From a virus, in IMG/VR virus record IMGVR_UViG_3300009431_000574, positions 1 to 20,653 of that record: a stretch of 20,653 bases of DNA. One strand, 5' to 3'. Positions 142 through 16,662 of this stretch are shown here, in pieces. The notes under the pieces were generated by a model, which was not told the DNA's origin, ran no database searches, and saw only the letters and a list, made by a program, of their open reading frames with translations. Every line of letters begins with the position of its first letter. Position 1 is the stretch's first letter. The position numbers and the translations under genes were made by a program.

Positions 142-1112
142 TCACAACTACTTATAATGATTATGAGCTTTTGAGGCAGTTTGTGGAGTCTGTTCTGAAT
201 AATGTAAATCCTGATTCTTACAAAGAGCTGATTGTGATGGATGATTATTCAAATAAAAATGGGACGCTGAGGGAGTATGAAAAGTATTTGAATACTGAAG
301 TGGATAAGGTAAGGGTAATATTACATGATGAGTATAGATATCCTCATATGTATAAATATAAAGAGTTCAAGAATAAGGTGGTGAATGGCAGTTTTGATTA
401 TAGGGATTATGATTCTGACAAGGCCAATATGGGGCATGCTTATTCTCTCAATGAAGTGATGAAATATGTAGAAACTGACTATGTGTTTCAGGCAGACTGC
501 GATTGTATTTTTATGGAAGATTCAAAGGACATGTTATTTGAGATCGCAAAGTTATTCGAGGAGAATGAAAAGGTATTAGGCATTGGTCAGGCAACAGGGA
601 CAAGGACAAATGATATTGTGATATTTGGGGATAGATTTAAGTGGAATTCCAGAGGGCGATCAGTTGGTGGAGGTGGGTACGTTTCTCAATGTGCTTCTGC
701 TCTGAGGACTTCTGCCTGGAAGGAACACGATATTTATGTGGTGCGTCCAAATCATTTTAAACGGGAAGATGAAAAGGTGACCACCTCAGCTCTGAATTTC
801 TTCCATGAATACCTTTATGAAAAGGGATTCCAGACGATGAACTATCCAGTGTTTAGTGCTGGGAAAATGATTCATCTTGGAGGAGGGTTTGTAAAGAGGA
901 GTCCTGGTGGGAAATATGTATATGGATTTTGCAGGGACTTTGTTGCTCCATATGGCCCAAGAAGATTGCATGGTTCATTTGAGAGCTGGCACATGGGCAG
1001 GTATATAATTGATATGGATTATGATGAGTATGTGAAGAAGCTGAAAGAAGATTACAAAAGCCCATTTGGTGAGATTCAAAGTACCATAAATAAAGTTCGG
1101 GTATTAGATTGA
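129..1112 (+). CDS. GT-A glycosyltransferase (family 2-like)
   Basis: This 327-residue protein probably transfers a sugar from a nucleotide-sugar donor in the host cytoplasm. Its N-terminus 'FSIVTTTYNDYELLRQFVES' (residues 2-21) is the usual first strand and helix of family 2 enzymes. It is followed by 'VMDDYSN' (36-42), 'NMGHAYSLNEV' (100-110) and 'QADCDCIF' (121-128), where D123 and D125 form the metal/nucleotide-sugar DxD motif. There is no signal peptide or membrane segment, so it is a soluble enzyme. The start is GTG at 129, set by a GGAGG about six bases upstream and by the first residues already matching the GT fold. Acceptor and sugar cannot be predicted. It is the first complete gene of a run of glycan-related genes, and its stop is followed at once by the AAGGAGGG of the next gene. 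Confidence 0.85.
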   Translation: MFSIVTTTYNDYELLRQFVESVLNNVNPDSYKELIVMDDYSNKNGTLREYEKYLNTEVDKVRVILHDEYRYPHMYKYKEFKNKVVNGSFDYRDYDSDKANMGHAYSLNEVMKYVETDYVFQADCDCIFMEDSKDMLFEIAKLFEENEKVLGIGQATGTRTNDIVIFGDRFKWNSRGRSVGGGGYVSQCASALRTSAWKEHDIYVVRPNHFKREDEKVTTSALNFFHEYLYEKGFQTMNYPVFSAGKMIHLGGGFVKRSPGGKYVYGFCRDFVAPYGPRRLHGSFESWHMGRYIIDMDYDEYVKKLKEDYKSPFGEIQSTINKVRVLD

Positions 1113-1123
1113 AGGAGGGTAAA

Positions 1124-1936
1124 ATGAATTGGCCAAAAATTGAAGTATGGAGAATGAGCTGTGGGAGGCCAGAGCAACTGGAAGCATCACATCCTACATT
1201 ATTGAAGAATCTCCAGTACTCAGGAGAGTTGGAATATCATCTTATTGAGAGCGTGAGATATAAGGAAGCTTCTGAGGAATGTATTGCTTGGGGAAAGAAT
1301 CATGATTATAAAGTTCATGTGATTAATCCAGCGAAAGGGCAGGGGTATGCAGTATGGTATTATCTTAATGAGGTGGCAGATTGTAAATATGGACTGAAGT
1401 GGGAGGATGACTTTCAGGCTGAAAAGGTAATCCCTCTTGATGATTGTATTCGAGTAATGGAGAATTATAATCATATCAATCAGATTTGTTTCAATAAGAG
1501 GGAAACGATGAAGGCTAAATGGTGCTCTTTGCAGGATGGTACAAGATATGAATGGGAGAAGGAACAGAGGGTATTGGGCTGGACTGAACTAATAGGAGGA
1601 ATTGAAGCAAAGTTTCTTATCCCTTTAGTTTGCAAGGAGAAATGGTGGTTTGGAGCTTCCCTTTGGAGAATAGATTTCATAAAGCCTATATTCAGATGGT
1701 GGGAAGTGAATACTCATAATACGTTTAATGATGAAGTCATTATTCCGATGATAAGAAAGGAGGCAGGAAAATATGATTATACAGCATCTGATATGGAAAA
1801 ATCAGTTGGCTGTTATATTTATGGGAAAACGGGTGATGAAAGAATGGCTTGGCATGCTGGTGGAGGAGTGAGTTGGTGGGCTGGGGAAATGCAGGAGAAA
1901 CTAAAGGCAGAAGGAAAGGAGATCATAGGGGTATGA
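1124..1936 (+). CDS. Glycosyltransferase-like protein with WEDD motif
   Basis: This 270-residue protein looks like a divergent GT-A glycosyltransferase. It begins with a strand-type segment followed by 'SCGRPEQLEAS' (12-22), and 'LKWEDDFQAE' (91-100) has the acidic triplet E94-D95-D96 where a DxD motif is expected. Further on, 'ICFNKRE' (near 121) and 'GASLWRIDFIKPIF' (near 180) resemble segments of the protein at 3245-3892, so the two appear to be paralogs. An in-frame TTG at 1109 would add five residues, but AAGGAGGG at 1112-1119, four bases before ATG 1124, fixes the start at ATG. The stop overlaps the formyltransferase start as ATGA. The enzyme class is inferred from motif and context; donor and acceptor are unknown. 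Confidence 0.7.
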   Translation: MNWPKIEVWRMSCGRPEQLEASHPTLLKNLQYSGELEYHLIESVRYKEASEECIAWGKNHDYKVHVINPAKGQGYAVWYYLNEVADCKYGLKWEDDFQAEKVIPLDDCIRVMENYNHINQICFNKRETMKAKWCSLQDGTRYEWEKEQRVLGWTELIGGIEAKFLIPLVCKEKWWFGASLWRIDFIKPIFRWWEVNTHNTFNDEVIIPMIRKEAGKYDYTASDMEKSVGCYIYGKTGDERMAWHAGGGVSWWAGEMQEKLKAEGKEIIGV

Positions 1937-2619
1937 ATATTGCAATCTTGACATATGACCATCCTCACAGGAAGACTCAGGAATTGATCATGAGGATGAA
2001 GGCAAATGGATATGGGGAAGCAACTGTTATAGTGACTCCTTGGGTAGATAGGAAAGGACATATACCGTTATATCCACATAGGTTCTTGAAGGCTTTCGAT
2101 ATTCCAATTCAGGAGTTTGCTCTGAATTTTTCATATGATGTGATGATGCCAGATGATTTGGCAAAGTGCCTGAGCCAGTTTGATTATGCTCTTATTGGTG
2201 GAGCAGGTATTTTGACAGAAGAAGTGGTGAATAGTACAAAGATCATAAATTCTCATCCTGGGTATCTTCCAAGAACAAGAGGGTTAGATGCTTTGAAATG
2301 GGCTATATATAATGGTGAAGAAATTGGAGTAACTTCTTATATAATAGGAGCAGAAGCAGATACAGGAATACTAATTGAACGGTGTTGGACTTTTCCAAAG
2401 CCTTTGGATTCATTTCATTCTTTTGCAATAAAACATTTTGATTTGGAAATTGATATGTTGGTAAGAGCTATTCATAAACGAAAAGATTGGGCAGGAAGAA
2501 ATATACAGGATGATATTTTGGAACCAGAAGGGATTGTTCATAAAAGAATGAAACATTGGCAGGAAATAATAATGGTGAAGAGGTTTGATGAATTGAAGAT
2601 AAGCAGGCAATCAAGATGA
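1933..2619 (+). CDS. Formyltransferase, probably sugar N-formyltransferase
   Basis: This 228-residue protein has the folate-dependent formyltransferase catalytic set. 'INSHPGYLPRTRGLDALKWA' (105-124) contains N106 and H108, and 'GAEADTGILIE' (139-149) contains D143, matching the Asn-His-Asp triad and HPG loop of PurN, Fmt and sugar N-formyltransferases, which use N10-formyltetrahydrofolate. At about 230 residues it lacks the C-terminal domain of methionyl-tRNA formyltransferase (usually over 300 residues) and is close in size to enzymes that formylate the amine of 4-amino-4,6-dideoxy sugars such as dTDP-Qui4N. The flanking glycosyltransferases support that role. Start ATG 1933 overlaps the previous stop (ATGA). 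No aminotransferase or dehydratase for making the amino sugar lies in this window, so the substrate would come from the host or from genes outside. A PurN-like role is less likely. Confidence 0.85.
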   Translation: MNIAILTYDHPHRKTQELIMRMKANGYGEATVIVTPWVDRKGHIPLYPHRFLKAFDIPIQEFALNFSYDVMMPDDLAKCLSQFDYALIGGAGILTEEVVNSTKIINSHPGYLPRTRGLDALKWAIYNGEEIGVTSYIIGAEADTGILIERCWTFPKPLDSFHSFAIKHFDLEIDMLVRAIHKRKDWAGRNIQDDILEPEGIVHKRMKHWQEIIMVKRFDELKISRQSR

Positions 2620-3248
2620 AAATAATAGAAAAGGCAAAATTTAGTTATCCAACTTGGGAGAATAAAGAGACAGAAGGGGATTGGCTCAATAGGATGAATG
2701 AGATTAATTTTCTGATAGCTAATGGGATGGAGCCAAATCATCATCTTTTGGATATTGGAACTGGTTGGCTGAGATGTGGAATTGATTGTATTAAGTATCT
2801 GGATAAGGATAGATTCTTTGGATATGATTATTCTCTTGCAGATATAGAGCTTGGTTTTACTGGGATTGCAAAATATGGATTGGAGGGAAAGAATCCTACA
2901 TTGGCAGTAGAGAAATATTTTGATGCTCAAAAATTTAGCCAGGAGTTTGATTTTGCTTTTGCCAATTCAATTTTCACTCATCTTCATCCGAAAGCTATAA
3001 TGTTGTGTATCAGTAATACAGTTTCCGTATTAAAAGAGAATGGAAAGTTCTTTGCTACAATTTACAAAGAGGATTCTTTAACTGGGTTTGATGATAATCC
3101 AGATGGGTTCTTTTTGAGAAGTACTCAACCCTATTCTTTTTATGAAGAGATTTGTAAAGGGCTTTGTAAGTTCACTTCTATTGGAAAGTGGATTGGTTCT
3201 GATGCAGCATATGGACAACAGATGTTATTATTCGAGAGGTTAAAATGA
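2616..3248 (+). CDS. Class I SAM-dependent methyltransferase
   Basis: This 210-residue soluble protein has a Rossmann-type methyltransferase core. Motif I is 'LLDIGTGWLRCG' (44-55), the acidic end of strand 2 is 'FFGYDYS' (67-73), and 'DFAFANSIFTHLHP' (112-125) with 'VLKENGKFFATIY' (138-150) correspond to motif IV and the following strand. It should transfer a methyl group from S-adenosylmethionine. The substrate is not readable from the sequence, but its place between a formyltransferase and glycosyltransferases suggests a sugar hydroxyl or amine on the same glycan. Start ATG 2616 overlaps the previous stop as ATGA, and its own stop overlaps the next ATG at 3245, so translation is probably coupled. 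Confidence 0.85.
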   Translation: MKIIEKAKFSYPTWENKETEGDWLNRMNEINFLIANGMEPNHHLLDIGTGWLRCGIDCIKYLDKDRFFGYDYSLADIELGFTGIAKYGLEGKNPTLAVEKYFDAQKFSQEFDFAFANSIFTHLHPKAIMLCISNTVSVLKENGKFFATIYKEDSLTGFDDNPDGFFLRSTQPYSFYEEICKGLCKFTSIGKWIGSDAAYGQQMLLFERLK

Positions 3249-3892
3249 TTGATGTATTGATTACATCTTCTTCAAGATCGGAATATTTGAAGCGTGTGAT
3301 ATTTTCTTTGAGGGATCATTTGAAATATTCTGGTAATTTGAATTTTATTTTGCATGATGATATAAGAAATAATGATTCATATTATGTTCTCAGTTTGGCT
3401 AAGATATGGAGAATAAACAAAACATTATTGACTCGTCCAGCTGAAGGAGAATCAAAGGCCATCCAAACTTTGCTTAATCATTCCACTACAAAATATGTAG
3501 TATTTTGGGAGGATGACTGGTTACTCCTGAAGGATATAGATTTGGATGATGTGATTAGCTTCTTTGAGTACAGAGATGATGTGAATATGATAGCTTTCAA
3601 TAAGTGCTTGAATAATCCGTATCATGGATATAAAGAGACTGTGATAAATGGGAAGAAACTATTATTCTGCTATGATTGGGTGGTTGCTCCAAGTGTCTGG
3701 AGGGCTGATTATATAAAGCCAAGATTCAAGGTGACTGAGAATCCAGATGATATCAGGAGAGTATTGAGAGGATGGAAACAAAGAAGTCCTGAATGGGTAA
3801 AGGAAAATATGGGAACCTATTTCTATGGTGGATACGGACAGGGAGAATTCATTAAACATATTGGGGAGAAGTCAGCAAATGAAACAATATAG
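3245..3892 (+). CDS. Small GT-A glycosyltransferase-like protein (WEDD type)
   Basis: This 215-residue protein opens with 'MIDVLITSSSRSEYLKRVIF', a typical GT-A first strand and helix, and carries 'VVFWEDDWLLL' (85-95) with the acidic triplet in the DxD position. 'MIAFNKCLN' and 'APSVWRADYIKPRF' further on parallel segments of the protein at 1124-1936, suggesting duplication and divergence within the cassette. It is short for a family 2 enzyme and has no membrane anchor. The start overlaps the methyltransferase stop (ATGA), with GAGG just upstream. Donor and acceptor are unknown; the glycosyltransferase call rests on fold-level motifs and neighbours. Confidence 0.72.
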   Translation: MIDVLITSSSRSEYLKRVIFSLRDHLKYSGNLNFILHDDIRNNDSYYVLSLAKIWRINKTLLTRPAEGESKAIQTLLNHSTTKYVVFWEDDWLLLKDIDLDDVISFFEYRDDVNMIAFNKCLNNPYHGYKETVINGKKLLFCYDWVVAPSVWRADYIKPRFKVTENPDDIRRVLRGWKQRSPEWVKENMGTYFYGGYGQGEFIKHIGEKSANETI

Positions 3893-4844
3893 GATAGTAG
3901 GATTGGGTGATTGGCATGGGTATTATTCCCACTTTCTTCATGGTATTCTGGAAGGCACAATAAGGAATAGGGGATGGTTCAGACCTGTATATTTATTCCA
4001 GGGGTTGGATGAGATAGAGATGCAGATAAGATGGTTCAGACCTCACCTGATTATTGGGCATATGTATTTTAACAAGAGGCCGCATGAGCCAAGGCAGCTT
4101 TTGAAGATGTTGGGAAGAATTAGAGAGATGGGAACAAAAGTGGCTTATCATATGGGTGATGCAAAAATAGTTTCCAAGTTCCCGGATGATATTTCGAAGT
4201 TCGTAGATTTTGCTTTGGTCAATCATACCAATTATCAGGAGATAGAAAAGGCTTGGGGAGTGCCTTGTCATCATTGGCCCTATATGTGTTTCCAGCAAAA
4301 TGGAGGGGAGAAGAAAGCTGAGTTTGAAAAGAAGGTGGTTTTTACTGGTAGTTTGGATGATGGAAAATATCATGGAGCAAGGAAAATATTTATTGAAAAA
4401 TTGAGAAAAGAAATTGAAGTGGCAACTTTCCCTAATAGCCAAGTGGGTAATACAAGATTTATGACTGCTGATGTATCCATGTCTGCTGGGTGTGTATTAG
4501 GAGTCCAGATGGAACCACAGATAAATGGCTACTTGGATGTTCGGCCATTCCAATATATAGGATCTGGGGCATTATATTTCCAGGATAGATGTGAAGCGAT
4601 GGACAGGGTATTCAAACCTGATTACCATTATGTAAGTTATAGGACTGGCAGTGTTGAAGATTTTATAACGAAATACAAATACTATGTAGAGGAGCACCCA
4701 GAGGAAGGGGAAAAGATCAGATTGCAGGGAAGGCGGTTTTGTCAGAATTATCACAGCACAAAGGAAAGAGTAAAGTTTGCTATGGATATTGCTGAGGGTA
4801 AAGAAGTGACCAATAGAATATATTTAAAGGATTTGCCAGAATGA
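3879..4844 (+). CDS. GT-B glycosyltransferase, CgeB-like (Glyco_trans_1_2 type)
   Basis: This 321-residue protein has the C-terminal signature of GT-B enzymes of the CgeB type: 'GYLDVRPFQYIGSGALYFQD' (217-236), followed by a fixed-distance 'YRTGSVEDFITKYKYYVEEH' (254-273) and 'GRRFCQNYHSTKERV' (284-298). The N-terminal half has alternating strands and helices, including 'RPHLIIGHMYF' (54-64). No signal peptide is present. An upstream in-frame ATG at 3825 would overlap the previous gene by 68 bases; ATG 3879 is preferred because GGGGAGAA lies eight bases upstream and the overlap is then 14 bases. CgeB-like proteins are common in phage and spore-coat glycan clusters. The transferred sugar is unknown. 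Confidence 0.8.
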   Translation: MKQYRIVGLGDWHGYYSHFLHGILEGTIRNRGWFRPVYLFQGLDEIEMQIRWFRPHLIIGHMYFNKRPHEPRQLLKMLGRIREMGTKVAYHMGDAKIVSKFPDDISKFVDFALVNHTNYQEIEKAWGVPCHHWPYMCFQQNGGEKKAEFEKKVVFTGSLDDGKYHGARKIFIEKLRKEIEVATFPNSQVGNTRFMTADVSMSAGCVLGVQMEPQINGYLDVRPFQYIGSGALYFQDRCEAMDRVFKPDYHYVSYRTGSVEDFITKYKYYVEEHPEEGEKIRLQGRRFCQNYHSTKERVKFAMDIAEGKEVTNRIYLKDLPE

Positions 4845-6088
4845 AGATATTCAAACAAGCAGAAATCAAAGGTGATGAAATAAGGATTGATCACAAAGCT
4901 TATCCAGTAATCAGAGGGAAGCACTGTATTTGGATTCCCCATTTAGAGATGAAAATCATTTGGAGCTTTAATGGGAAAATAGAATCCCTCAAGGAATGGG
5001 ACAAGGGAAGGCATAATGAGGTTATCAAGAGCCATACCTTCAATGAAAATGAAGGGTGGAAGGAGGAGTCAATAACAAGCATAATATCTGAATATAAAAT
5101 ATTAAACGAGTTGAGTAATCATGGAATGGCTCCTCCGGTCAATGACTACTTTTATATACAGAGTTTGATTTCAGAGTATCCAGATGGAGTGAGAAATTGT
5201 GACTGTCAGGGAGCATATGGATATTTTATTAAGGATGCAAATAAACTGGAAAAAGGGAAATATTCTTATGATGAGTTTAAAAAGGTGTTTTTGGATACTG
5301 GGTTGATTGTAGCCTCAGATGGAGCAAGGGGTGATTTGGCAAAACCAGCTAATACAGTGAATGGGTATTTGGTGGATGTGAGGAAGACGATTTGGGATAT
5401 GATGGAGTGGAATGGTGAAGAAGATCCTGTTGATCAGTCTGAATTTAATTATAATGGAAGTACGGATATATTGTTGCTAATAGAAAGAATTCAAAACCTC
5501 TCCCAATTTCCACACAAGGAGAGAAAGCAAAATTACCAGTCTTACTATCTGATTGACCATTATGAGGAAGGAAGCAGAAATACGATTTACAGGATGATGG
5601 AAATGAAAGTGGAACTGGATTTGTCTGGTAAGACTGTTGTTGATCTGGGATGTCAGCTTGGAAGTATGGCTATGGAATGCTACAGGCGAGGAGCCAGGAA
5701 AGTGACTGGCTTGGAGTATGAGACAGATTATGTAGATTGTGCCAGAGACTTGGCGAGGGTAAACAATTTCCAGATCAATCTTTTACAGATGGACTTGACA
5801 GACAGTGAGAAAGTGATTGAGTATCTGAATGGGTATTACAAAGAAGGTATTGATATTCTGTTTGCTCTGAGTATTTACAAGCATATCCCAAGAGGGTGCT
5901 TCATAAAACTTTTGGAAGAAATCAAATGGAAAGTTTGTTATCTGGAAAGTCACAATGCCCCAGATGGAGAAAAGACTGGTCATGTAGTAGATATAATAAA
6001 AATAATAAATGACCTTGACTGTGAGGTTGAATGCTTGGGTATTATAGAGGACAGATCACCGAGGATGGTATGGAGGATGAAAAGATGA
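4841..6088 (+). CDS. Fusion: unknown (possibly kinase-like) N-domain plus methyltransferase
   Basis: This 415-residue protein has two parts. Residues about 225-415 form a class I SAM-dependent methyltransferase, with motif I 'TVVDLGCQLGSMA' (265-277), 'VTGLEYETDYVDCARD' (288-303) around the SAM-ribose acidic residue, and 'INLLQMDLTD' (312-321). Residues 1-190 are not recognised with certainty. 'EYKILNELSNHGMAPPV' (84-100) and 'NGYLVDVRKT' (174-183) faintly recall the helix C and catalytic/metal strands of kinase-fold sugar or lipid kinases, but no clear glycine loop or HxD was found, so that domain may be degenerate or something else. It starts at ATG 4841, overlapping the previous stop. It probably modifies the glycan made by its neighbours (inference). 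Confidence 0.75.
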   Translation: MKIFKQAEIKGDEIRIDHKAYPVIRGKHCIWIPHLEMKIIWSFNGKIESLKEWDKGRHNEVIKSHTFNENEGWKEESITSIISEYKILNELSNHGMAPPVNDYFYIQSLISEYPDGVRNCDCQGAYGYFIKDANKLEKGKYSYDEFKKVFLDTGLIVASDGARGDLAKPANTVNGYLVDVRKTIWDMMEWNGEEDPVDQSEFNYNGSTDILLLIERIQNLSQFPHKERKQNYQSYYLIDHYEEGSRNTIYRMMEMKVELDLSGKTVVDLGCQLGSMAMECYRRGARKVTGLEYETDYVDCARDLARVNNFQINLLQMDLTDSEKVIEYLNGYYKEGIDILFALSIYKHIPRGCFIKLLEEIKWKVCYLESHNAPDGEKTGHVVDIIKIINDLDCEVECLGIIEDRSPRMVWRMKR

Positions 6089-6307
6089 GAGAGAAAAAGA
6101 GAAGATGGGTATTATTGGGTTAGGTTTGTTAATCCTATAGTGGCTGGGCATATGGTATGGACTGTAGGATATTATAAGTTTTCAGCACAAGGATCAATTA
6201 TGGACCCATCTAATCCTTTAGAATGGGAGGTTGTAGCTTCTGATGAAATATTTTGTGAGAATAAACTTGAGATTTTTGAAGAAAAGATAAAGGAACCAGG
6301 TGAGTAA
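6085..6307 (+). pseudogene. Small unrecognised ORF with apparently frameshifted start
   Basis: An ATG at 6085 has an excellent ribosome site (GGAGG, 6072-6076) and an ATGA overlap with the previous gene, but its frame stops at TAG 6121-6123. The next frame is open from 6089 to TAA 6305-6307 and encodes an aromatic-rich peptide. Removing one A from the five-A run at 6094-6098 joins them into a 73-residue protein beginning 'MREKREDGYYWVRFVNP' and ending 'EEKIKEPGE'. The options are a true indel, a sequencing error, programmed +1 frameshifting, or a shorter gene from GTG 6140 or ATG 6152, neither with a clear ribosome site. The family is unknown. The same open frame also continues directly past the TGA of the methyltransferase fusion. 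The stop overlaps the GTG start of the next gene by eight bases. Confidence 0.55.
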
Positions 6308-8117
6308 CGAGATAAAAATTCATTGGGCAGTGGATATCAGTCCAGAACTAAAAGGTAATGGATATGGGTATAAATCCCATAGCAATAGCATGAAGGAATA
6401 TGTTTCCAAGATTGCTGATTTGACTCCTGATGCTGAGGACTCTGTGATAATAACAAGTCCTGAGTTTTATTATCATAGGATTCCAAACAAAGTAAACTGG
6501 CTTTTTACAATGTTTGAAGGCACAGAGCTTCCAGGTATTTATGCAAAATCCATCCAGAAAGCGGATTTCATTTTGACACCTTCAACCTGGGTGACTGAAT
6601 TGTTCAAAAAGTATTTTGATCCCAAGAGAATATTCACAGTACAGGAGGCAGCCTCAGAAGATTATACTTATCATGAAAGGAAATACCCACATTGGAGACC
6701 ATTCAGATATCTTTGGGTGGGTGCTCCAAATCCAAGAAAAGGGTGGAATGAGATTATGGCTGTCTGGGCTCAATTGTTTATGCATAATCCAGAGGTGGAA
6801 TTATATCTGAAGACCACAAAAGCTGAGAGTGGTAAACTTGGGGATGGAATATCAAGGATTAATTTGAGAGATCCAGATGAAAGGATAGTAGGGACAAAGC
6901 AGGGTAATATAATATTAGACAAGAGGGATATTCCAAAAAAGGAATTAATTGAACTTTATCACTCTGCTCATTGCTTTGTATTCCCAACGAGAGGAGAGGG
7001 CTTTGGACTTACACTTGCAGAAGCTATGCGAACAGGTCTGCCATGTATTTCAACTCTGTACTCAGGACTCACTGATTTTTTTGATGATAGTGTTGGTTAT
7101 AGCTTGCCTTATGAAATGGGCAAAGGGTCAATGACCTTCAAAGGTGGAAGAAAAGGAGAAAGAACTTATATCACAGAAATGGCTATGCCAGATGTAACAG
7201 CGTTATTTGATGCTATGGTTTATATAAAGGCAAATTATGATCAAGCTTTGGCAAAAGGAAAGTTAGCCAGTGAGTTGATAAGCCATTGCTTTACTTGGGA
7301 GAGATCGGCTGAGATATTGGTCAATGTAATAAAGGAGCATGGAGGATTGAAAAGGACTAATATCAAGCTGAAGGAAACAGAGTTGAAGAAAGTAAAAACC
7401 AAGAAAAAAGTAATCACTATGACAGCTTATAAGAGGCCGGAATATACAAAGAGGGTTTTGGATGGATTGAAGAACTGTGAAGGGATCAAGGAATTTGTAC
7501 TGATGCCTCATGTGGAGCCTGGGAATGAGGAAGTAATTGAGATGATCAAGGCTGTGGATTTTATGGAATGTGACTATTCAATCAATAATATAAGGTGGGA
7601 TATTAATGAGAACACTTTTAGGGCTTTGACTCATGGGTTCCAGGAATCAGATTTTGTGATCCATATAGAGGATGATACTGTGCCATCACCAGATTTCCTG
7701 GCTTATATGTACCAGATGAAAACTCTTTATGAAGTGGATAAGGATGTGTTGACAATATGTGCATATAACAAATATCCAATGGAGAAGATTGACCAGAAGG
7801 ATTACCATATGTGCTTCAGGAAAAAGTGGTTCACTCCCTGGGGATGGGGAACATGGAAGGACAGGTGGGAAAAGTTTATCGAGCCTGACTGGCACAAGAA
7901 TGGGGATAAACTTTCCTGGGATGAGTATATGAATCATGTTCTGAGGGGTGAAAAGGATGAGGTTAGACCGATGCTTGGGAGGACTCAGAACATTGGAGCA
8001 GAAGGTGGTAGGTTTGACAAAGATCATGCAAAGGATCAGTTCAACAAAGTGTGGGCAGGAGATGTGAAAATAGAATTTGCTGAATTTAAGGAAGTAGAAT
8101 ACAAGGAGGCAGAATAA
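6300..8117 (+). CDS. Bifunctional glycosyltransferase: GT-B (family 4-like) plus GT-A domain
   Basis: This 605-residue soluble protein joins two glycosyltransferase folds. Residues about 5-345 are GT-B: 'YLWVGAPNPRKGWNEIM' (137-153) is the linker/start of the second Rossmann half, and 'RGEGFGLTLAEAM' (231-243) holds the EX7E pair E233/E241 that binds the donor. A lysine-rich linker (about 350-370) leads to a GT-A domain, with 'KKVITMTAYKRPEYTKRVLD' (369-388), the metal-binding 'HIEDDTVPSPDF' (455-466) and 'FTPWGWGTWKDRW' (511-523). The GT-A half resembles GNT-I-like and other EDD-type transferases and the smaller EDD proteins in this cassette. Start GTG 6300 is supported by AAAGGA at 6289-6294. 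Such fusions usually add two sugars in succession to one glycan. It is the last cassette gene, and its stop overlaps the neck gene start as TAATG. Confidence 0.85.
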   Translation: MSNEIKIHWAVDISPELKGNGYGYKSHSNSMKEYVSKIADLTPDAEDSVIITSPEFYYHRIPNKVNWLFTMFEGTELPGIYAKSIQKADFILTPSTWVTELFKKYFDPKRIFTVQEAASEDYTYHERKYPHWRPFRYLWVGAPNPRKGWNEIMAVWAQLFMHNPEVELYLKTTKAESGKLGDGISRINLRDPDERIVGTKQGNIILDKRDIPKKELIELYHSAHCFVFPTRGEGFGLTLAEAMRTGLPCISTLYSGLTDFFDDSVGYSLPYEMGKGSMTFKGGRKGERTYITEMAMPDVTALFDAMVYIKANYDQALAKGKLASELISHCFTWERSAEILVNVIKEHGGLKRTNIKLKETELKKVKTKKKVITMTAYKRPEYTKRVLDGLKNCEGIKEFVLMPHVEPGNEEVIEMIKAVDFMECDYSINNIRWDINENTFRALTHGFQESDFVIHIEDDTVPSPDFLAYMYQMKTLYEVDKDVLTICAYNKYPMEKIDQKDYHMCFRKKWFTPWGWGTWKDRWEKFIEPDWHKNGDKLSWDEYMNHVLRGEKDEVRPMLGRTQNIGAEGGRFDKDHAKDQFNKVWAGDVKIEFAEFKEVEYKEAE

Positions 8118-8692
8118 TGGCTTTTATTGACAAAACTGATATTAAAAATGAGATTGATCCTAAGGAAGCTATTGGAACTACTTGGGACACTTATATAACT
8201 GCATTGGCCACATATGTATTATCTCTTTGGGATGAGTTGACAAACAGAACTTGGGCAAGTACCACCCATACGGAGTATTATAGTCCAAGGAAACACCAGT
8301 CACTTCTGATATTGAAGAATTGCCCCATTACGAGTATAACAAGTATTCATGATGATCCTGAAAGAGATTATGAAAGCGATACATTAATCAGCTCTGATGA
8401 TTATGGATATGGAGATGGGAAGTCCGGGATGGTGACTTATGATTCGGAGTTCTACGAAAGTATGTTTGGAGTGAAGATTGTTTATGTGGCTGGCTATACA
8501 GATACGAATGTACCAGCATGGTTGAAAAATGCTTTATCAAGACAAGGTGCTCATTGGTGGTTGCAATCAAAGGAGAAAGCCTGGAATATTGGAGGAAAAA
8601 CAGTGGGTGCAGGCACAATAAATTATAAGGATTTGAAAACTAATTTACTGCCTGACTTTGAATTATTAGTTGAAAGGAATATGTTAATATAA
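8117..8692 (+). CDS. Head-tail connector (HK97 gp6-like adaptor)
   Basis: This 191-residue protein is probably the ring protein docked under the portal that links head to tail. Features typical of the gp6-like family are a helical N-terminus (residues 8-45), a central beta segment with 'LLILKNCPITSITSI' (63-77), and the signature 'VYVAGYTDTNVPAWLKNAL' (122-140), followed by a C-terminal helix pair that in the family packs between subunits. Length is within the family's usual range. It begins at ATG 8117, overlapping the stop of the glycosyltransferase, and is followed by tail-completion and terminator genes in the standard order. Confidence 0.8.
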   Translation: MAFIDKTDIKNEIDPKEAIGTTWDTYITALATYVLSLWDELTNRTWASTTHTEYYSPRKHQSLLILKNCPITSITSIHDDPERDYESDTLISSDDYGYGDGKSGMVTYDSEFYESMFGVKIVYVAGYTDTNVPAWLKNALSRQGAHWWLQSKEKAWNIGGKTVGAGTINYKDLKTNLLPDFELLVERNMLI

Positions 8693-9153
8693 TGAAGTAC
8701 AAAATAGTCCCTGCTGGTTCTGAGAAGTGGATAGCCAGAGATTGGGAGAAATGGTATAAAGAATTTAGACAGGCACGAAATGAAGTTCCTAATCTACTGG
8801 CGAAACAACTTCATAAAGGATTAGAGTTTGCAAGGAGGAAAATCACCACTGAATACCTAACAGGCCCAAGACCGGAGAAGCTTGGTGTGGTGACTGGTAG
8901 ATTGAGATCAAGTATTCATTATAGGATAACAACAGTAAATAAAAGATTTATAAAGGGGGAGATTGGGACTGATGTATGGTATGGAAAGTTGCATGAAGAA
9001 GGTGGAGACTTTAAAATGGCAAGTGGCCCATTGGCAGGAGCAGTTCATAATTACCCAAAGAGACCATTTCTCAAGCCAGGGTTAGAAGATTCAGAAGATT
9101 ATATAAGCAAGTTATTTCAGAAGTTTGGAATGCATTTACAGAGGACTGGATAA
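8692..9153 (+). CDS. Tail-completion/neck protein (HK97 gp10-like)
   Basis: This 153-residue protein carries the hallmarks of the HK97 gp10-like family: 'VVTGRLRSSIHYRI' (66-79), a turn 'GTDVWYGKLHEEGG' (92-105), and 'YPKRPFLKPGLED' (121-133) near the C-terminus. Members act at the head-tail junction, as tail-completion or neck proteins. It lies between the gp6-like connector and the putative terminator, as expected. No separate head-closure gene is seen between the connector and this gene, so either this protein or an upstream one may cover that role. Start ATG 8692 overlaps the previous stop (TAATG). Confidence 0.78.
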   Translation: MKYKIVPAGSEKWIARDWEKWYKEFRQARNEVPNLLAKQLHKGLEFARRKITTEYLTGPRPEKLGVVTGRLRSSIHYRITTVNKRFIKGEIGTDVWYGKLHEEGGDFKMASGPLAGAVHNYPKRPFLKPGLEDSEDYISKLFQKFGMHLQRTG

Positions 9154-9587
9154 TGGCAGTTAAGAATGTAGAAAAATCAGTATATGATAGGATAGTTGAT
9201 GATCTTCAGGGGATTGATGGGACTGGTAACTTTAATTTTGATATAGGGAATGACTTTGTTTTTGATACTGAGTTCATTCCTCCAGAGCAGGCTACATCAG
9301 ACAGGGTTATTGTCATGGGATCACAAAGGCAACTTCCTGCTGATCCAAAATGGAGGACTGATTTTGAGCTTCCCATGAGGTGGGAGATTTGGGCCTATGT
9401 TCAGAACGTAGAAGACCCAGCAGGAGATGCAAATAAGATACTGTCTGATATAAGGGTGGCAATATTAGCAGATGAACAATTAAATGAATTGGTAACTGAT
9501 CTGACATTTGAATCAGAAATGGAAGTATTATTGGGGACTGGATACGTACGAGTTGTGATACATGCAGATGCCTTGCACCAAGCATAA
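9153..9587 (+). CDS. Putative tail terminator protein
   Basis: This 144-residue protein has the mixed alpha/beta pattern and size of tail terminators (lambda gpU-like). It has an N-terminal helix 'EKSVYDRIVDDLQ' (6-18), a central strand 'DFELPMRWEIWAYVQ' (55-69), a helix 'GDANKILSDIRVAILADEQL' (75-94), and closing strands ending in 'VRVVIHADALHQA'. The family is poorly conserved, so the call relies mainly on position: directly after the gp10-like protein and directly before the tail tube. In such phages the terminator forms a ring that caps the finished tail tube and joins it to the head. Start ATG 9153 overlaps the previous stop. Confidence 0.65.
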   Translation: MAVKNVEKSVYDRIVDDLQGIDGTGNFNFDIGNDFVFDTEFIPPEQATSDRVIVMGSQRQLPADPKWRTDFELPMRWEIWAYVQNVEDPAGDANKILSDIRVAILADEQLNELVTDLTFESEMEVLLGTGYVRVVIHADALHQA

Positions 9588-9599
9588 GGAGACAATGAA

Positions 9600-10643
9600 A
9601 TGAGAAAGTTTACTGCACGAGACGGAACATTACGAATATTCGATGGGGCCGAGAGAATAGCAAAAGGAGCACAGGCTAATATGTCTGTCTATGTTTGGGA
9701 TCAAAGTGGTCCCACATTTACTGACAAAACGGCTGAAGCCTATGCTGATGATACAAGTTATACAGGAAACTTTTGGGTAGATTCACCAGACAAAATATAT
9801 GTGGGCCAGACTACTCCTTTTGCCAGAATAAAATATTTACAAGGGGGAGGAGTGGATGCTATTGCTGCTGGGGCATTAGTTCCGAAATATTATAATGGCA
9901 CATCATTTACAGGAATTCCTGGATTTGAAGCTGCTCATGATGGAACAGCAGTGAGTGGGAATACACTGGCTCAGGATGGATATATACATTTCAATCCTCC
10001 TTATAATTGGGCAAAGGGTGGTGATGCCTCTTTGGATTCTACAATGTATTATATTGAGTTGGCTCCTACATCTTATCCTACTACAGAGCCAAGTGCTGAT
10101 ATATTGGCTCCTGTGGATGGACAATTCAGAGATGTGATATTTGCCAACATGGATTTTGCTGGGCCATTTGGCAGAGCTTTGACAGAAGAGCAATTGGTAT
10201 TGAATAGAGGGCAGATGGATTCTTATGGACATTATGTTCAAGGGTCAGATGATCCTGTCCATGCTCCTTTGCCAATATCATTTTCGTTTTTATTGGATGA
10301 TACTGTGAATTTGGATTATATCTTTGATGCTTTGATTTGTGCCAATCCTAATGATGGAGCAAATTGGACAGCTTCAGGAACTACCACAAAAGGAGATACA
10401 AAAAATGATGGTACAAATTCAAATCCTGCCTTTGCAAACTCATCTGAGAAAACAGTGGATATTCAGATGCTTTGGGCAACCGGAACAACTGGAGGGTATG
10501 ATCAGGGAGTGTCCTATTATGAAGTATATTTTCCAAGGGAACAACAGCAAATCGCTGAAAGTGATGAGGGAGTAATTATGACTTGCAATGGGTTGGTGTA
10601 TGGGGTAATTGAGAATATCCACTGGTTGGCAGATAGATACTAA
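9600..10643 (+). CDS. Putative major tail tube protein, long paralog with inserted domain
   Basis: This 347-residue protein matches the shorter protein at 10974-11561 at both ends. Residues 1-20 ('MRKFTARDGTLRIFDG') pair with 'MKFTKRNGAIRFVDG'. From about 178 to 335 the shared blocks include 'FGRALTEEQLVLNRGQMDS', 'HYVQGSDDP', 'APLPISFSFLLDD', 'NPAFANSS' and 'FPREQQQIAESDEGV'. Position after the terminator and before the chaperones suggests a tail tube subunit. Residues about 24-177 have no counterpart in the paralog: a Thr/Ser/Tyr-rich, apparently all-beta segment including 'KYYNGTSFTGIPGF', 'DGYIHFNPPYNW' and 'YYIELAPTSYP', probably displayed on the tail surface. Start ATG 9600 has AAGGAG at 9586-9591; an ATG at 9595 is stopped after two codons. 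It could instead be a tube-associated decoration protein. Confidence 0.65.
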   Translation: MRKFTARDGTLRIFDGAERIAKGAQANMSVYVWDQSGPTFTDKTAEAYADDTSYTGNFWVDSPDKIYVGQTTPFARIKYLQGGGVDAIAAGALVPKYYNGTSFTGIPGFEAAHDGTAVSGNTLAQDGYIHFNPPYNWAKGGDASLDSTMYYIELAPTSYPTTEPSADILAPVDGQFRDVIFANMDFAGPFGRALTEEQLVLNRGQMDSYGHYVQGSDDPVHAPLPISFSFLLDDTVNLDYIFDALICANPNDGANWTASGTTTKGDTKNDGTNSNPAFANSSEKTVDIQMLWATGTTGGYDQGVSYYEVYFPREQQQIAESDEGVIMTCNGLVYGVIENIHWLADRY

Positions 10644-10653
10644 GGAGGGTGAT

Positions 10654-10977
10654 ATGAAATTCTATGGAATAAATTTGAAAAGGACAAAAGGACCGATTGA
10701 GGTTGAGGCAGACGGATATCTTCATGCCAGAGAAGCTTTGGAATTTGAATTTGAAGATAGCTATCTTGTGTACAGGGAAGATGATGTCATGCCAGAAGTC
10801 AAGAAGTCAACAAGAAGAAGGAAACAAAAAGAGGAGGTATTTACTGAACCAGAAATTCCAGAAGAAACACTGGAAGAGCCTATAACAACTGAGGTTGAAG
10901 AATTACCAGAAATTGAAGAAGAATCTGAAATTGAAACCGATGACGAAACTGAAATAGAGAAAGGAGAAGAATTATGA
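10654..10977 (+). CDS. Small acidic protein between tail tube paralogs
   Basis: This 107-residue protein has a short folded-looking N-terminus (1-50, 'MKFYGINLKRTKGPIEVEAD' to 'YLVYRED'), a basic patch 'KKSTRRRKQKEE' near residue 50, and then a disordered, Glu/Thr/Ile-rich tail made of irregular 'EPEIPEE', 'EELPEIEEESEIE' units. I recognise no family. The start is ATG 10654, set by AAGGAGGGTGAT immediately upstream; the same frame is open from 10609 but that would overlap the previous gene. Its stop overlaps the next tube gene as ATGA. Placement between two tube paralogs suggests a role in tube assembly, such as chaperone or decoration, but that is only inference. Confidence 0.65.
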   Translation: MKFYGINLKRTKGPIEVEADGYLHAREALEFEFEDSYLVYREDDVMPEVKKSTRRRKQKEEVFTEPEIPEETLEEPITTEVEELPEIEEESEIETDDETEIEKGEEL

Positions 10978-11561
10978 AGTTTACCAAAAGAAATGGAGCG
11001 ATACGATTTGTGGATGGGACAAGCACCTCTTACTATTTGGACATAGATTTTGAGAACGCTGACCTTAATGCTCCCTTTGGCACACCACTGACCGAGGAAC
11101 TTTTGCACATGAATCGTGGGGTAATGGATTCAGATGCTCATTATGTCCAAGGGCCGGATGATCCAATGATGGCTCCTCTGCCCATGACATTATCTGTGAC
11201 ACTGACTGATGGTGCTCATACCCAGAATGTACTGGATTGGATCACTGCTTTGAATGATGGGGGAAGCACTACTGTCAATAGTAATACTGTTGCCACTACT
11301 GAATCAGATACCCAGAGAGATGGAAGCAATAACAATCCCGCTTTTGCCAATTCCAACAAGCTGACCTGTAATGTTGAAGCCCATTGGAACACTTCTGGGA
11401 CTGATCTGCATTTTATTTGGGCAGAGGTTTGTTTCCCAAGGGATCAGGTCCAGATTGCTGAGTCAGATGATGGTGTGAATATTACCTTGAATGGGATGAT
11501 CTATGGTACTATCACGTATAATTCAAGTGCTCTGAATGGTGACACTGATATCGAAGCTTAA
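10974..11561 (+). CDS. Putative major tail tube protein, short paralog
   Basis: This 195-residue protein has the expected size for a siphovirus tail tube subunit and lies just before the chaperone pair and tape measure gene. Predicted beta-rich blocks include 'YLDIDFENADLNAPFG' (21-36), 'LPMTLSVTLTDG' (69-80), 'LTCNVEAHWNT' (130-140) and 'ESDDGVNITLNGMIYGTITY' (163-182). It aligns by eye along its length with the outer parts of the 347-residue protein upstream, without that protein's internal insertion, so the two arose by duplication. Start ATG 10974 has AGGAG upstream and overlaps the acidic gene's stop. Which paralog is the main tube subunit cannot be told from sequence; this compact form is the better candidate. 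Confidence 0.68.
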   Translation: MKFTKRNGAIRFVDGTSTSYYLDIDFENADLNAPFGTPLTEELLHMNRGVMDSDAHYVQGPDDPMMAPLPMTLSVTLTDGAHTQNVLDWITALNDGGSTTVNSNTVATTESDTQRDGSNNNPAFANSNKLTCNVEAHWNTSGTDLHFIWAEVCFPRDQVQIAESDDGVNITLNGMIYGTITYNSSALNGDTDIEA

Positions 11562-11575: not shown

Positions 11576-12115
11576 ATGGGTAAGAGAAAAGTATGGTCAA
11601 AATTTGTTGAGGGTGAAACCACTTTTGAATCAAAAGGTGTTTCAATTATTAAATTAACAAAGAGAGTTGGAGTGGAAGGAGATTCAGAAAATATTGATGA
11701 ATATATTGAAATTCCCATTACATCAATTGGAATGATGGAGGTTTGGGAGGAATTAGAAAGGGATATTCCCAAACCTCCTACCAGGAAAGTACAGGTGATA
11801 AAAGGTTCCCAGTTTGAAACAGAATATGGCTTTCCAGTTAATTCAATAGTACAAGTATTTGATGTAACTGATGAAAAGTATTTGAAAAAGTTTTCTGATT
11901 ATAAAAGTGATTTCCTTTGGAGAACAGTTATTCATGGAATAGATTTTGAATGGATAGATACTGAAGGAAATGAAATCACTGATCCGAAAAAGAAAACTGA
12001 ACTGTTGAAAAATTCTGGTATTACTGGATTTCATTTAGAGCAATTGAAAAATGATATCGCAAAGCTGACAACCGATGCAGAAGAGAGTGCAGATTTTTTG
12101 TCAAAAATGCCATAG
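11576..12115 (+). CDS. Tail assembly chaperone, gpG-like (zero-frame product)
   Basis: This 179-residue acidic protein lies between the tail tube and the tape measure gene, the slot of lambda gpG. It has an N-terminal beta-like part ('VWSKFVEGETTFESKGVS'), a middle 'FPVNSIVQVFDVTDEKYLKK' region, and a helical end 'FHLEQLKNDIAKLTTDAEES'. The family is barely conserved at sequence level; the decisive evidence is that its last codons contain a canonical -1 slippery heptamer leading into a second open frame. In lambda, G and its GT fusion hold the tape measure protein in solution while the tube polymerises and are absent from the finished virion. Start ATG 11576 has AAGGAG a few bases upstream. 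Confidence 0.75.
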   Translation: MGKRKVWSKFVEGETTFESKGVSIIKLTKRVGVEGDSENIDEYIEIPITSIGMMEVWEELERDIPKPPTRKVQVIKGSQFETEYGFPVNSIVQVFDVTDEKYLKKFSDYKSDFLWRTVIHGIDFEWIDTEGNEITDPKKKTELLKNSGITGFHLEQLKNDIAKLTTDAEESADFLSKMP

Positions 12116-12390
12116 GGTATACTGAAAAGGTTCAAAAGAAATTAGAAAAAAAGGGTGAATCTGTAAAGTATTTGTTTAATGAAATAAGTATAATAGAGGA
12201 ATTTAAGATTGATCCCTTTACTTATGATGAACTCCATAGATGGGATAAAAAATTACTTTATTATTATCTTCTTATGAAAAGATATTATGATGAAGTCAGT
12301 ATGGAGAAAATAAGAAAGGATTCAGATGTGGAAAGAAAGCAAGCTGAGATGGTGAAGAATGCTCCTAAAGTAGCGAGACGGAGAAAATAA
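11576..12390 (+). CDS. Tail assembly chaperone fusion, gpGT-like, by -1 frameshift
   Basis: Slippage at T_TTT_TTG (12094-12100) moves ribosomes into a frame that is open from 12055 to the TAA at 12388-12390. The fusion would be 271 residues, continuing after the slip as 'VKNAIGYTEKVQKKLEKKGE' and ending 'KNAPKVARRRK'. The added part is highly charged, helical and Lys-rich, as expected of the T domain that contacts the tail tube in lambda. The T frame has no ATG or strong ribosome site of its own before the helical region; a TTG at 12172 is a poor start, so the fusion is the likely product. The stop overlaps the tape measure ATG. Confidence 0.78.
12094..12120 (+). promoter_or_regulatory. Programmed -1 frameshift site: slippery heptamer and hairpin
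   Basis: The zero-frame codons GAT TTT TTG contain T_TTT_TTG, a canonical X_XXY_YYZ heptamer at 12094-12100. Six bases downstream, ATGCC (12107-12111) can pair with GGTAT (12116-12120) around a four-base loop, with one G-U pair, giving a short stem at the usual stimulator distance. The zero-frame stop TAG (12113-12115) lies in that hairpin. The slip direction (-1) is exactly the one needed to enter the downstream T frame. Confidence 0.8.
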
Positions 12391-14945
12391 TGGCAAGAGA
12401 ACTGAAGTGGAAATTAATTGTTGACACGAAGCAAGGAAAGCTTTCCCTTGACAGATTTAGAGCATCCCAGGACAAGGTAACAAAGAGCATGAAAAAGTCT
12501 GGAGTGCAAGCAGGCAGAACAAGTAAAAGAATGGGCTCTTTGAAAAAGATGGTTGTTGGGCTTGCTGGCACTGCTGGACTTCTGATGCTTAGTAAGAGTT
12601 TTTTGAAAGCAGCAGATACAGCAGAACAGTATGGGGTTAGACTGGAAGTTCTTTTGAGATCACAGAAGGAAGGTAATCGTTTATTTAAGGATATGGCTGA
12701 ATTTGCCTCCCGAGTTCCTTTTCAGTATGAGGAAATTATGGGAGCAGCTACTCAGCTTGCTGGTGTGATGAAGGGTGGTGTGGATGAGATTAAGGAATGG
12801 ATGCCTTTGATTGGTGATCTTGCTGCTGCCTCTGGATTACAGATTGAGCTTGCCACTGGACAGGTAATCAGAATGCTTAGTGCTGGTTCTGGTGCTGCCA
12901 GATTATTCAGGCAAAGAGGTATTCTTGCTATGCTGGGATTTCAAGCTGGAGTTGCCACAAGTGCATCTGAGACTCGGAGAATTTTGAGAGAGTCCTGGGA
13001 AAAGACAGATAGCCAGTTTAGAGGAGCTACTGCAAAATTAGCCAAGACTTGGAAAGGGGCCACTTCAATGATGGGAGATAAGTGGTTCAAATTTAGAACG
13101 ATGTTAATGGATTCAGGCCCATTTGACTTTCTAAAATCTGGTATTCTCGTCGTTAACGAGGAATTTGATAAAGCAGTTGAATCTGGTAAAATGCAGAAGT
13201 GGGCAGATGATCTTGGTGGAGCGATAATTAGGATTACCAAAACTGTTTTGCTGGGAGTCACTGGAATAATAGATACAGTTGGGCCAATACTTGGTAAGAT
13301 AATTTCTATAATTTACAATACTATTAAAGAAATGCCTCCTTGGGTTAGGGAACTTGGAATACTTGGATTTTTATTATTTGGAATAAAGGGAGCGGCCACT
13401 ATTGGTTTATTATCAGCAGCTATAACAGAGATAAAAAAATTAAATGAATCTGAGGAAGTCCTCATTAAGGATTTGGAAACTGCTGAAAAGGTTTTAGTAG
13501 GATATAATAAAGAATTGAAACAACTTCAAGGCAATTACAAAGATTTAAGTTTAGTAGAAAAGGCTGATATTTTCTTGAGTGGGGGATTAGAAAGAGAAAT
13601 TCAGAATCAAGAAGAATTAGTAAATAAGCAAATTACTCTTGTAGATAAATACAAAGGGAAGCTTGCAGAATTGTATCCAGAAGGAGCCGGAAAGGAATAT
13701 TTAGCTTTCCAAATAGATGTTGAAATTGAAGGAGAAGAGCAATTTAGTTTCCTTAAAGGTATGGGGGATCTCCTTGGAGTAGAAGAAGGTACACTCACTA
13801 AAACTTTAAGAAAGATTATAAAAGAGTTTGAAGAGGCTATGGAAAGAATTAGGGAAGCAGATAAAGAAGTAAAACCCCCTGATTTATCTTCTGTAAGAAA
13901 TCAAATGATATTAGAGGCAGAGGCATTGGCTGGAGATTTAGATGCAATACAAACAATGAAGCAACAAGATGAAGTTGCAAAATTAGAATCCCATTTTGGA
14001 GACTTGGCTTTAAAGTATCAGCAACAAGGTTTAAAGGATATTGATCTTACTGAACAACTTGAAAAGGGTAAAGCTGAAATAAGAAAGAAATTTCGGAAGA
14101 TAGAATTGGATGAACAAACAGAGAAAGCTCAGGAGCTTTATGATTTAGAATTGACATATACTCAATTATCTGTTCAAAATATGGAAGATGGTTCAATTAA
14201 ACAAGATGCCTTAGCTGAAATTGCAAAAAATAAAGAGGATGATAGATATAGAGAGGCTTTGCAAACTTTAAATGAGCAACTTGAAAACAAAGTGATTGTT
14301 GCAGAAGAATATAGAAGAATAACAGAAACATTAGAGGGTATTCACCAAGAAAAACTGAATGAAATTGAAAAAGAAGGGGTGGAAAAAAGAACATCATTAG
14401 AAAAATCAAGACTTGATAGCATTAAAACATTAGTTGGGGATTATGCTTCTCTTTATAGAGATATGGCTCAAGCTGGCATTGGTGGGTTAAAGGAGAGTTT
14501 TGATCTTTATAAAGCTTTTGCAGGAGCAGAGGGCATAATTGCTGCTTATGGTGCTTATTTAAAGGGATTGGAGAAAGGCGGCCCAGTAATGGCTTATGCT
14601 AATCTTGCATTAGGTCTGGCAAAAGTAGCTTTAATCAATGCCCAACAACCTCCCTCCTTTGATCAGGGAGGAATATCAACCAAACCCGGTGTTTATTATT
14701 CAGGAGTGCCAGAAGCTCATATTCCACTAAAAAGTGGAAAAGTACCAGTGGATATATCTGGAGGGGAAAGACCTACTATAATAAATGAATTTCACATAGA
14801 AGGAAATACGTTTTTGGATCAACAAACATTACAAGAAAATATGGCTGTGATAGCAGATACAATATCAAAACAAAATGCTCCTGGAGCAATTGTGGAGAAT
14901 TATCTTAATGATGGAATTGTTAGAACTATTTTAGGAGGAAGGTAA
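12390..14945 (+). CDS. Tape measure protein
   Basis: This 851-residue protein sets tail length and is probably packed inside the tube. The N-terminus is basic ('KVTKSMKKSGVQAGRTSKRM', 29-48), followed by a hydrophobic segment (52-70) and a tape-measure-type domain with 'EYGVRL'-like and 'GAATQLAGVMKGGVDEI' blocks (about 80-240). Hydrophobic stretches lie at about 278-347, then a long charged helical/coiled-coil region (about 350-700). The C-terminus has 'DQGGISTKPGVYYSGVPEA' and 'IPLKSGKVPV' (about 757-785), a motif common at tape measure ends. At about 0.15 nm per residue the tail would be near 130 nm. Start ATG 12390 overlaps the GT stop. From roughly 13430 on, leucine becomes mostly TTA and the DNA more AT-rich, a possible sign of mosaic exchange. 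Confidence 0.9.
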   Translation: MARELKWKLIVDTKQGKLSLDRFRASQDKVTKSMKKSGVQAGRTSKRMGSLKKMVVGLAGTAGLLMLSKSFLKAADTAEQYGVRLEVLLRSQKEGNRLFKDMAEFASRVPFQYEEIMGAATQLAGVMKGGVDEIKEWMPLIGDLAAASGLQIELATGQVIRMLSAGSGAARLFRQRGILAMLGFQAGVATSASETRRILRESWEKTDSQFRGATAKLAKTWKGATSMMGDKWFKFRTMLMDSGPFDFLKSGILVVNEEFDKAVESGKMQKWADDLGGAIIRITKTVLLGVTGIIDTVGPILGKIISIIYNTIKEMPPWVRELGILGFLLFGIKGAATIGLLSAAITEIKKLNESEEVLIKDLETAEKVLVGYNKELKQLQGNYKDLSLVEKADIFLSGGLEREIQNQEELVNKQITLVDKYKGKLAELYPEGAGKEYLAFQIDVEIEGEEQFSFLKGMGDLLGVEEGTLTKTLRKIIKEFEEAMERIREADKEVKPPDLSSVRNQMILEAEALAGDLDAIQTMKQQDEVAKLESHFGDLALKYQQQGLKDIDLTEQLEKGKAEIRKKFRKIELDEQTEKAQELYDLELTYTQLSVQNMEDGSIKQDALAEIAKNKEDDRYREALQTLNEQLENKVIVAEEYRRITETLEGIHQEKLNEIEKEGVEKRTSLEKSRLDSIKTLVGDYASLYRDMAQAGIGGLKESFDLYKAFAGAEGIIAAYGAYLKGLEKGGPVMAYANLALGLAKVALINAQQPPSFDQGGISTKPGVYYSGVPEAHIPLKSGKVPVDISGGERPTIINEFHIEGNTFLDQQTLQENMAVIADTISKQNAPGAIVENYLNDGIVRTILGGR

Positions 14946-15319
14946 TGGCGGCTGATGATTTTACAATTACTCCGACTTGGGTATACCCTATACGTATAAG
15001 TTTTAATAATGTAATTACAGTGTCAGAATCTTTGAAAAAAGATTACCAGAATATCGCTGATATTCCCACAGAACGATTTAGAATTGTATGGAGAGGTCTA
15101 TCTGATGCTAATGCAGAATTAATATATGAGCATTATAAATCTCGTTATGCAGGATATGATGATTTTGCTTGGAAGGCTGCAAATATACCTTCTTATATAA
15201 ATGACATTCTTGATTTAGGAGGAGCAGATTTGACAGGAAGATGGATTGATGAATCATGGAAAGCTACCCCAAAAGCAAATTCTTGGGATATAGAATTGAT
15301 ATTTGAAAAAGCACAATAA
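14945..15319 (+). CDS. Minor tail protein, gpM-like tail-tip protein
   Basis: This 124-residue protein lies directly after the tape measure gene, where lambda has gpM. Its layout fits gpM/distal-tail type proteins: an initial strand 'YPIRISFNNVITVSES', then 'RIVWRGLSDANAELIYEHYK' (47-66) with the Trp and helix that such proteins use in ring formation, 'GYDDFAWKAA', and 'RWIDESWKA' near the end followed by 'WDIELIFEKAQ'. It probably forms the ring joining the tail tube to the tip complex. Start ATG 14945 overlaps the tape measure stop, with GGAGGAAGG just upstream. Confidence 0.72.
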   Translation: MAADDFTITPTWVYPIRISFNNVITVSESLKKDYQNIADIPTERFRIVWRGLSDANAELIYEHYKSRYAGYDDFAWKAANIPSYINDILDLGGADLTGRWIDESWKATPKANSWDIELIFEKAQ

Positions 15320-16251: not shown

Positions 16252-16662
16252 ATGGTTATTAGAATTCTAACAGAGCCACAAGAAGTTTTAAAGATCATAA
16301 ATTTAGAAGACGATCCCCAGGATTTTATGATGGGGAATAAAGATGAGTGGATTCAATGGCTTGTACAACAAACAAAAGAAAATTCAAAAATTATAATTTG
16401 GGGAGCTTATGAGGAGGAGGAATTAGTAGGGTATCTTGTTTTGATGGATGGAAGAATACCACCTTTATCTTATCATGCTTTTATAATGTATGTTTATTCT
16501 GGAATGCTAACAGAAAATAATAAAGAAGCTTTTAGGGAGATAATTAATTGGTGTAAGAAAAGAGATATTCGAAAGATTATGATTGGAACAAAAACACCAA
16601 AAGTAATGGAGAAATATGGATTTAAAAAAAGTGATACGATATCTATGATGATGGAGTTATAA
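16252..16662 (+). CDS. GNAT-like acetyltransferase-fold protein in the tail module
   Basis: This 136-residue protein has the order of strands and helices of the GNAT fold: 'KIIIWGAYEEEELVGYLVLM' (44-63) as the central hairpin, a helix 'NNKEAFREIINWCKK', a strand 'IRKIMIGTK' and the terminal 'VMEKYGFKKSDTISMMMEL' (about 118-136), a typical GNAT ending. The acetyl-CoA loop (Q/R-x-x-G-x-G/A) before the helix is not evident; the sequence there is 'GMLTENNKEA'. It may therefore be inactive or divergent. It occupies the position where lambda encodes gpK, a peptidase-like protein, but no NlpC/P60 or JAB motif is present. Its start follows the gpL-like stop by two bases, and its stop overlaps the J-like start. 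Confidence 0.65.
   Translation: MVIRILTEPQEVLKIINLEDDPQDFMMGNKDEWIQWLVQQTKENSKIIIWGAYEEEELVGYLVLMDGRIPPLSYHAFIMYVYSGMLTENNKEAFREIINWCKKRDIRKIMIGTKTPKVMEKYGFKKSDTISMMMEL

Follow-up and report, generated by a model that had tools for sequence, protein, structure and literature searches.

A conserved pair of putative tail-tube paralogs, one with an N-proximal inserted domain, in siphovirus-like phages

Gene content of the locus and predicted tail-tube folds

The window, by which we mean the whole 20,653-nucleotide stretch analyzed from IMG/VR record IMGVR_UViG_3300009431_000574, contains two related open reading frames (ORFs), here called LONG and SHORT, within a run of predicted tail genes (Table 1). 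The first-pass annotation had proposed a paralog pair, and both ORFs were found exactly where it placed them. Residues 176 to 337 of LONG were 47% identical to residues 21 to 180 of SHORT (E = 2e-46), and the first 15 residues of the two proteins also matched (N termini KFTARDGTLRIFDG in LONG and KFTKRNGAIRFVDG in SHORT). With SHORT as the query against the window, the only matches were at the places of LONG and SHORT. The C termini of the two proteins were unlike each other, and each was conserved. The product of the small ORF between the copies has a short basic stretch and a Glu-rich tail.

An N-proximal insertion in LONG had also been described and was confirmed, but with bounds at about residues 17 to 173 (~155 to 157 residues) in the family alignment rather than residues 24 to 177. 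In the LONG model, the insert interrupts the turn between strand 1 (residues 2 to 20) and strand 2 (residues 166 to 188), and it therefore follows the first strand and not, as had been thought, the first strand pair. The Thr/Ser/Tyr richness attributed to the insert was modest in the window (24% versus 18% in the core) and slight or absent in many relatives.

Table 1. Positions of the tail-tube paralogs, their segments, and neighboring features in the window
Feature	Position	Strand	Description
Tail-terminator-like ORF	9153..9587	+	Upstream of LONG; weak match (phrog_4204, E = 0.07)
LONG	9600..10643	+	347-aa tail-tube paralog with N-proximal inserted domain; upstream Shine-Dalgarno-like AGGAG
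Inserted domain of LONG	9648..10118	+	Beta-rich; from family alignment and model
Hinge region of LONG	10156..10277	+	Residues 186-226; end of strand 2 and long hinge (inter-ring) loop; LONG and SHORT most alike
C-terminal sheet region of LONG	10516..10605	+	Residues 306-335; the other segment in which LONG and SHORT agree within genomes
Small acidic ORF	10654..10977	+	107 aa, between the copies; conserved only in closest relative, L028 (43% identity)
SHORT	10974..11561	+	195-aa compact tail-tube paralog; upstream Shine-Dalgarno-like AGGAG
Tail assembly chaperone G-like ORF	11576..12115	+	Adjoins the pair; conserved in all genomes
Chaperone T-like extension	12055..12390	+	Overlapping -1 frame, 111 codons
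TTTTTTG heptamer	12094..12100	+	In frame for -1 slippage (T TTT TTG)
Tape measure protein	12390..14945	+	TMP_3, 5e-11 (Pfam); phrog_973, 2e-27 (PHROGs)

The pair lies directly upstream of frameshifted G/G-T chaperone genes and the tape measure gene, as is characteristic of a major tail protein gene. In lambda-like phages, the G/G-T chaperone arrangement lies between the genes for the major tail protein and the tape measure protein, in that order. In 18 of 18 genomes, ORF G had a T TTT TTN heptamer 9 to 24 nt from its end, together with a -1 extension of 77 to 106 aa. Farther downstream in the window are a small distal protein ORF after the tape measure gene (14945-15319) and a hub of the phiJL001 gp84/BR0599 type. 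A weak GNAT acetyltransferase-like gene (16252-16662; Pfam E = 0.008) lies between the hub and tip genes and is kept in L037, L032, and L059; gene transfer agents have a peptidase in the hub-tip gene interval.

Sequence searches of the LONG and SHORT cores gave no significant match to a named tube family in Pfam, PHROGs, NCBIfam, PDB, or 50,697 phage records. T5-like tube proteins are likewise without sequence homologues in databases despite their common fold (PMC5717097). AlphaFold models built on alignments of 34 to 35 relatives (LONG, pLDDT 80.1 and pTM 0.78; SHORT, pLDDT 81.2 and pTM 0.78) both gave the phage tail-tube fold for the monomer, with a beta-sandwich, a long hinge loop, and a helix. 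Foldseek comparison to the PDB matched the SHORT model to the HFTV1 tube (9fkb; E = 6e-5, probability 1.00) and to AFP, PVC, monocin, and R4C tubes (probability 1.00), while the LONG model matched R4C (8gtb; 0.99), Hcp (0.99), and T4 gp19 (0.94). TM-scores were moderate, at ~0.5 to 0.6 for SHORT and its targets, with lower values for LONG on account of its insert. The first-pass proposal that both genes encode tail-tube proteins was thus upheld by the predicted fold of both products, their gene position, and the adjoining frameshifted chaperones. Paralogy and the predicted fold are both well supported, and we take the two products to be tail-tube paralogs of a siphovirus-like phage. Two other assignments were rejected, namely, LONG as a distal tail (Dit) protein, considering that its gene lies ahead of the chaperones and is not linked to the tip module, and LONG as a decorated form made by frameshifting of the SPP1 type, considering that LONG and SHORT are two separate genes with 47% identity.

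Conservation and duplication history of the gene pair

Scans of IMG/VR recovered relatives in about two dozen records. No relative within a prophage turned up when bacterial and archaeal genomes were scanned twice. With near-identical contigs counted once, 15 distinct genomes spanned both genes, the window included; two further records (L003 and L042) end inside LONG. Recurrence of the architecture in 14 further distinct genomes argues that the pair is neither a product of chance nor an assembly artifact. In each of the 15 genomes, the order was LONG, SHORT, and chaperones, with sizes of 340 to 376 aa for LONG and 187 to 196 aa for SHORT, and this order was kept even where the neck, tape measure, and tip genes had no similarity to those of the window. 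Among 14 relatives (blastp, 1e-3), the neck genes of the window were matched only by L028, the distal and hub genes were matched only by L037, L028, L032, L033, and L051, and tip genes had no detectable match in about half to two-thirds, counts that give a lower bound on module sharing since some relatives' loci end early. Since neck and tip modules are mosaic among the relatives, LONG is linked to SHORT and the chaperones and not to either end of the tail. Obligate pairing of LONG and SHORT is well supported.

Several smaller differences were seen among these records. One lineage (L030, 6857-7633, and also L014, L016, and L031) has, between LONG and SHORT, an ORF containing a NUMOD3 motif (Pfam E = 3e-11), which is typical of homing endonucleases. 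Debris of a third, decayed SHORT copy directly follows SHORT in L041 (2325-2570). A stretch of ~190 bases in the window (6087-6277), within which a small ORF begins and which is flanked by short direct repeats, is absent from L003, an otherwise near-identical contig (99.5 to 99.8% identity).

Phylogenetic analysis with the insert masked, and with the root set by choice on the outgroup, placed all LONG copies in one clade (100/100) and all SHORT copies in another (100/98), which points to a single old duplication before the spread of these phages. More distant relatives had other arrangements. L060 encodes a single compact tube copy in its 33.9-kb record, and L057 has two compact copies with a divergent third tube-like ORF in between (704-1159; 152 aa), which may be a further tube paralog. 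Of the two copies in L059, the first carries a domain of ~127 residues at the same strand 1-2 turn. This domain (phrog_30593, E = 3e-9) is unrelated in sequence to the LONG insert, indicating that the turn has received different domains; a weak choice-of-anchor V match was also seen for the domain inserted in that copy (7584-8552). In both L057 and L059, the genome's own two copies were each other's closest kin (97/92 and 100/99, respectively), and on this tree independent duplications would look the same as gene conversion of an older pair.

Subunit composition of the tube

Within genomes, LONG resembled its own SHORT more closely than it resembled the SHORT of other genomes in two segments. 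LONG-SHORT identity was 0.58 within versus 0.50 between genomes in the hinge region and 0.50 versus 0.42 in the C-terminal sheet region (P ~ 5e-5 for each, by permutation unaware of the tree), and the concordance was similar in both after thinning to 11 and 8 genomes. Residues 227 to 305 showed no clear within-genome excess (0.32 versus 0.31). At third codon positions of shared residues, identity over the whole core was 0.50 within genomes versus 0.42 between them, and within-genome identity in the hinge (0.48) was no higher than that of the core. Since third-codon identity is not specially raised in the hinge, recent local gene conversion is unlikely, and we do not favor it as the cause of the concordance. 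Likeness of each LONG to its own SHORT is unexpected after one old duplication and suggests that something couples the two. In the solved tubes of R4C (PMC10276861) and JBD30 (PMC11445458), the long loop docks both on the adjacent subunit and on the ring that follows, so it is plausible that the concordant segments belong to the interface. The concordance may thus be taken as support, though not proof, for LONG and SHORT working together.

Retention of the pair since an old duplication suggests tails built from two different subunits. Judging from the gene and protein sequences, LONG and SHORT probably co-assemble in one tube as noninterchangeable subunits, with LONG decorating the outside. 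Both would form part of a single tube that surrounds the tape measure protein, with SHORT as the plain subunit and LONG contributing the same ring-forming core plus the ~155-residue beta domain in its strand 1-2 turn. For a lumen 40 Å wide and a rise of 41 Å per ring, six inserts would need ~124,000 cubic angstroms, compared to ~51,500 in the lumen of one ring. Because six inserts exceed this volume, the domains are expected to lie outside the tube, and we infer that the insert of LONG faces outward from it.

The main rival reading is a position-specialized ring, in which one copy (most likely LONG) would be confined to a single ring or a few rings at one tube end, either initiating the tube at the tip or lying next to the head, and the bulk would be made of the other copy. 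Such specialization has parallels in extracellular contractile injection systems (eCIS), which have distinct genes for tube and tube-initiator proteins sharing one fold and in which Alg7 of AlgoCIS bears an extra outward LysM domain (PMC8894135), and in Dit proteins, where the tube fold carries insertion domains that face outward (R4C, PMC10276861); the differing, individually conserved C termini of LONG and SHORT would also fit. However, LONG has been retained while tip and neck modules were swapped for ones without detectable similarity, and its gene lies between the terminator-like and chaperone genes and not after the tape measure gene, a site already taken by the separate small distal protein. 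Concordance of the hinge loop and C-terminal sheet suggests, moreover, that both copies make equal use of the tube interface, and we regard an end-ring role for one copy as rather unlikely. Linkage and shared interface residues lead us to favor a mixed tube over LONG at one end, although they do not amount to proof.

A stricter form of the mixed tube, which we offer tentatively and with some doubt, is an obligate two-component polymer in which, after duplication, the upstream copy gained a domain in its strand 1-2 turn on at least two occasions (in the phages described here and, with an unrelated domain, in L059). LONG and SHORT might then alternate within hexamers, as an unfused counterpart of T5, or form alternating rings. 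That one copy is no virion component at all, serving as an assembly or regulatory decoy or degenerating, is very improbable: the third-copy debris in L041 indicates that copies can decay, but both frames were intact in 15 of 15 genomes, mean identities suggest similar constraint (55.8% for the LONG core and 54.7% for SHORT), and ribosome-binding-like sites precede LONG and SHORT in most genomes.

The inserted domain and comparison with known tails

The LONG insert had no sequence match in Pfam, PHROGs, NCBIfam, or PDB, including none to a carbohydrate-binding or Ig-like family, and no named homolog among 50,697 phage records; by these searches, it was not recognizable as a known adhesin. A weak Foldseek match to a galactose-binding carbohydrate-binding module (7blg; probability 0.63) was obtained with the whole LONG model and may serve as a lead. 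Among genomes, the insert (mean identity, 52.5%) evolves no faster than the LONG core (55.8%), and a fast-evolving adhesin engaged in an arms race was rejected on these grounds. Along the tail, the outward domain probably serves for decoration or weak adhesion.

A glycosyltransferase cassette with a methyltransferase occupies positions 129 to 8117 of the window, immediately upstream of the neck genes (Pfam). Apart from the window's phage (including its second contig, L003), GT2/GT4 genes were detected only in the sister lineage L028/L027. The first-pass annotation had named the insert as a plausible target of the phage's own glycosyltransferases; several such genes upstream in the window and their presence in L028 are in line with this, but ten other records (8 distinct genomes), which may be fragments, carry the insert without GT2/GT4, and its Ser/Thr/Tyr enrichment is weak, so a link between the insert and these genes is not supported, and we think it highly unlikely that the insert is a glycosylated surface modified by phage-encoded enzymes.

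Decorated tubes are already known. The SPP1 tube contains gp17.1 and gp17.1* at 3:1 (PMC7666168), plain and decorated subunits in one tail, as proposed here from genes; in SPP1, however, both forms come from one gene by frameshift, and the decoration is a C-terminal FN3 domain (PMC7666168), whereas here there are two diverged genes and the domain sits in the strand 1-2 turn. Outward tail-tube extensions also occur in lactococcal 936 phages (MTP-TpeX), where they are partly produced and host binding, but these are C-terminal and made by frameshift and not by separate paralogs (PMC6669499). T5 pb6 likewise combines a duplicated tube domain with an outward domain, although its copies are fused in one chain, its rings are trimeric, and its Ig domain is C-terminal, in contrast to the separate genes described here (PMC5717097). 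In JBD30 gp44, a decoration domain is inserted inside the tube fold, as in LONG, but later in the chain (residues 88 to 175), and a single gene makes all rings (PMC11445458). Several tube-fold paralogs, one with an extra domain, are found in the eCIS proteins Alg1, Alg5, and Alg7; that system is contractile, however, and its paralogs are position-specific baseplate rings (PMC8894135). Both of our models match the compact siphovirus fold of the marine siphophage R4C and RcGTA tubes, which are encoded by a single undecorated tube gene (PMC10276861).

A search of mostly nonsubscription literature found no report of two separate tube paralogs acting as partners in a siphovirus, which is weak evidence of absence. 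In the literature compared, each siphovirus tube comes from a single gene, in some cases along with a variant made by frameshifting, and no conserved pair of separate genes, one of them with a domain at the strand 1-2 turn, was described there. If LONG and SHORT do share one tube, they would provide a natural case of a polymer evolving two dedicated, coevolving subunits, and the strand 1-2 turn would be a repeatedly used docking site for tail-tube surface domains. The pair also gives a sequence signature by which tube genes may be recognized in uncultured phages without a database match.
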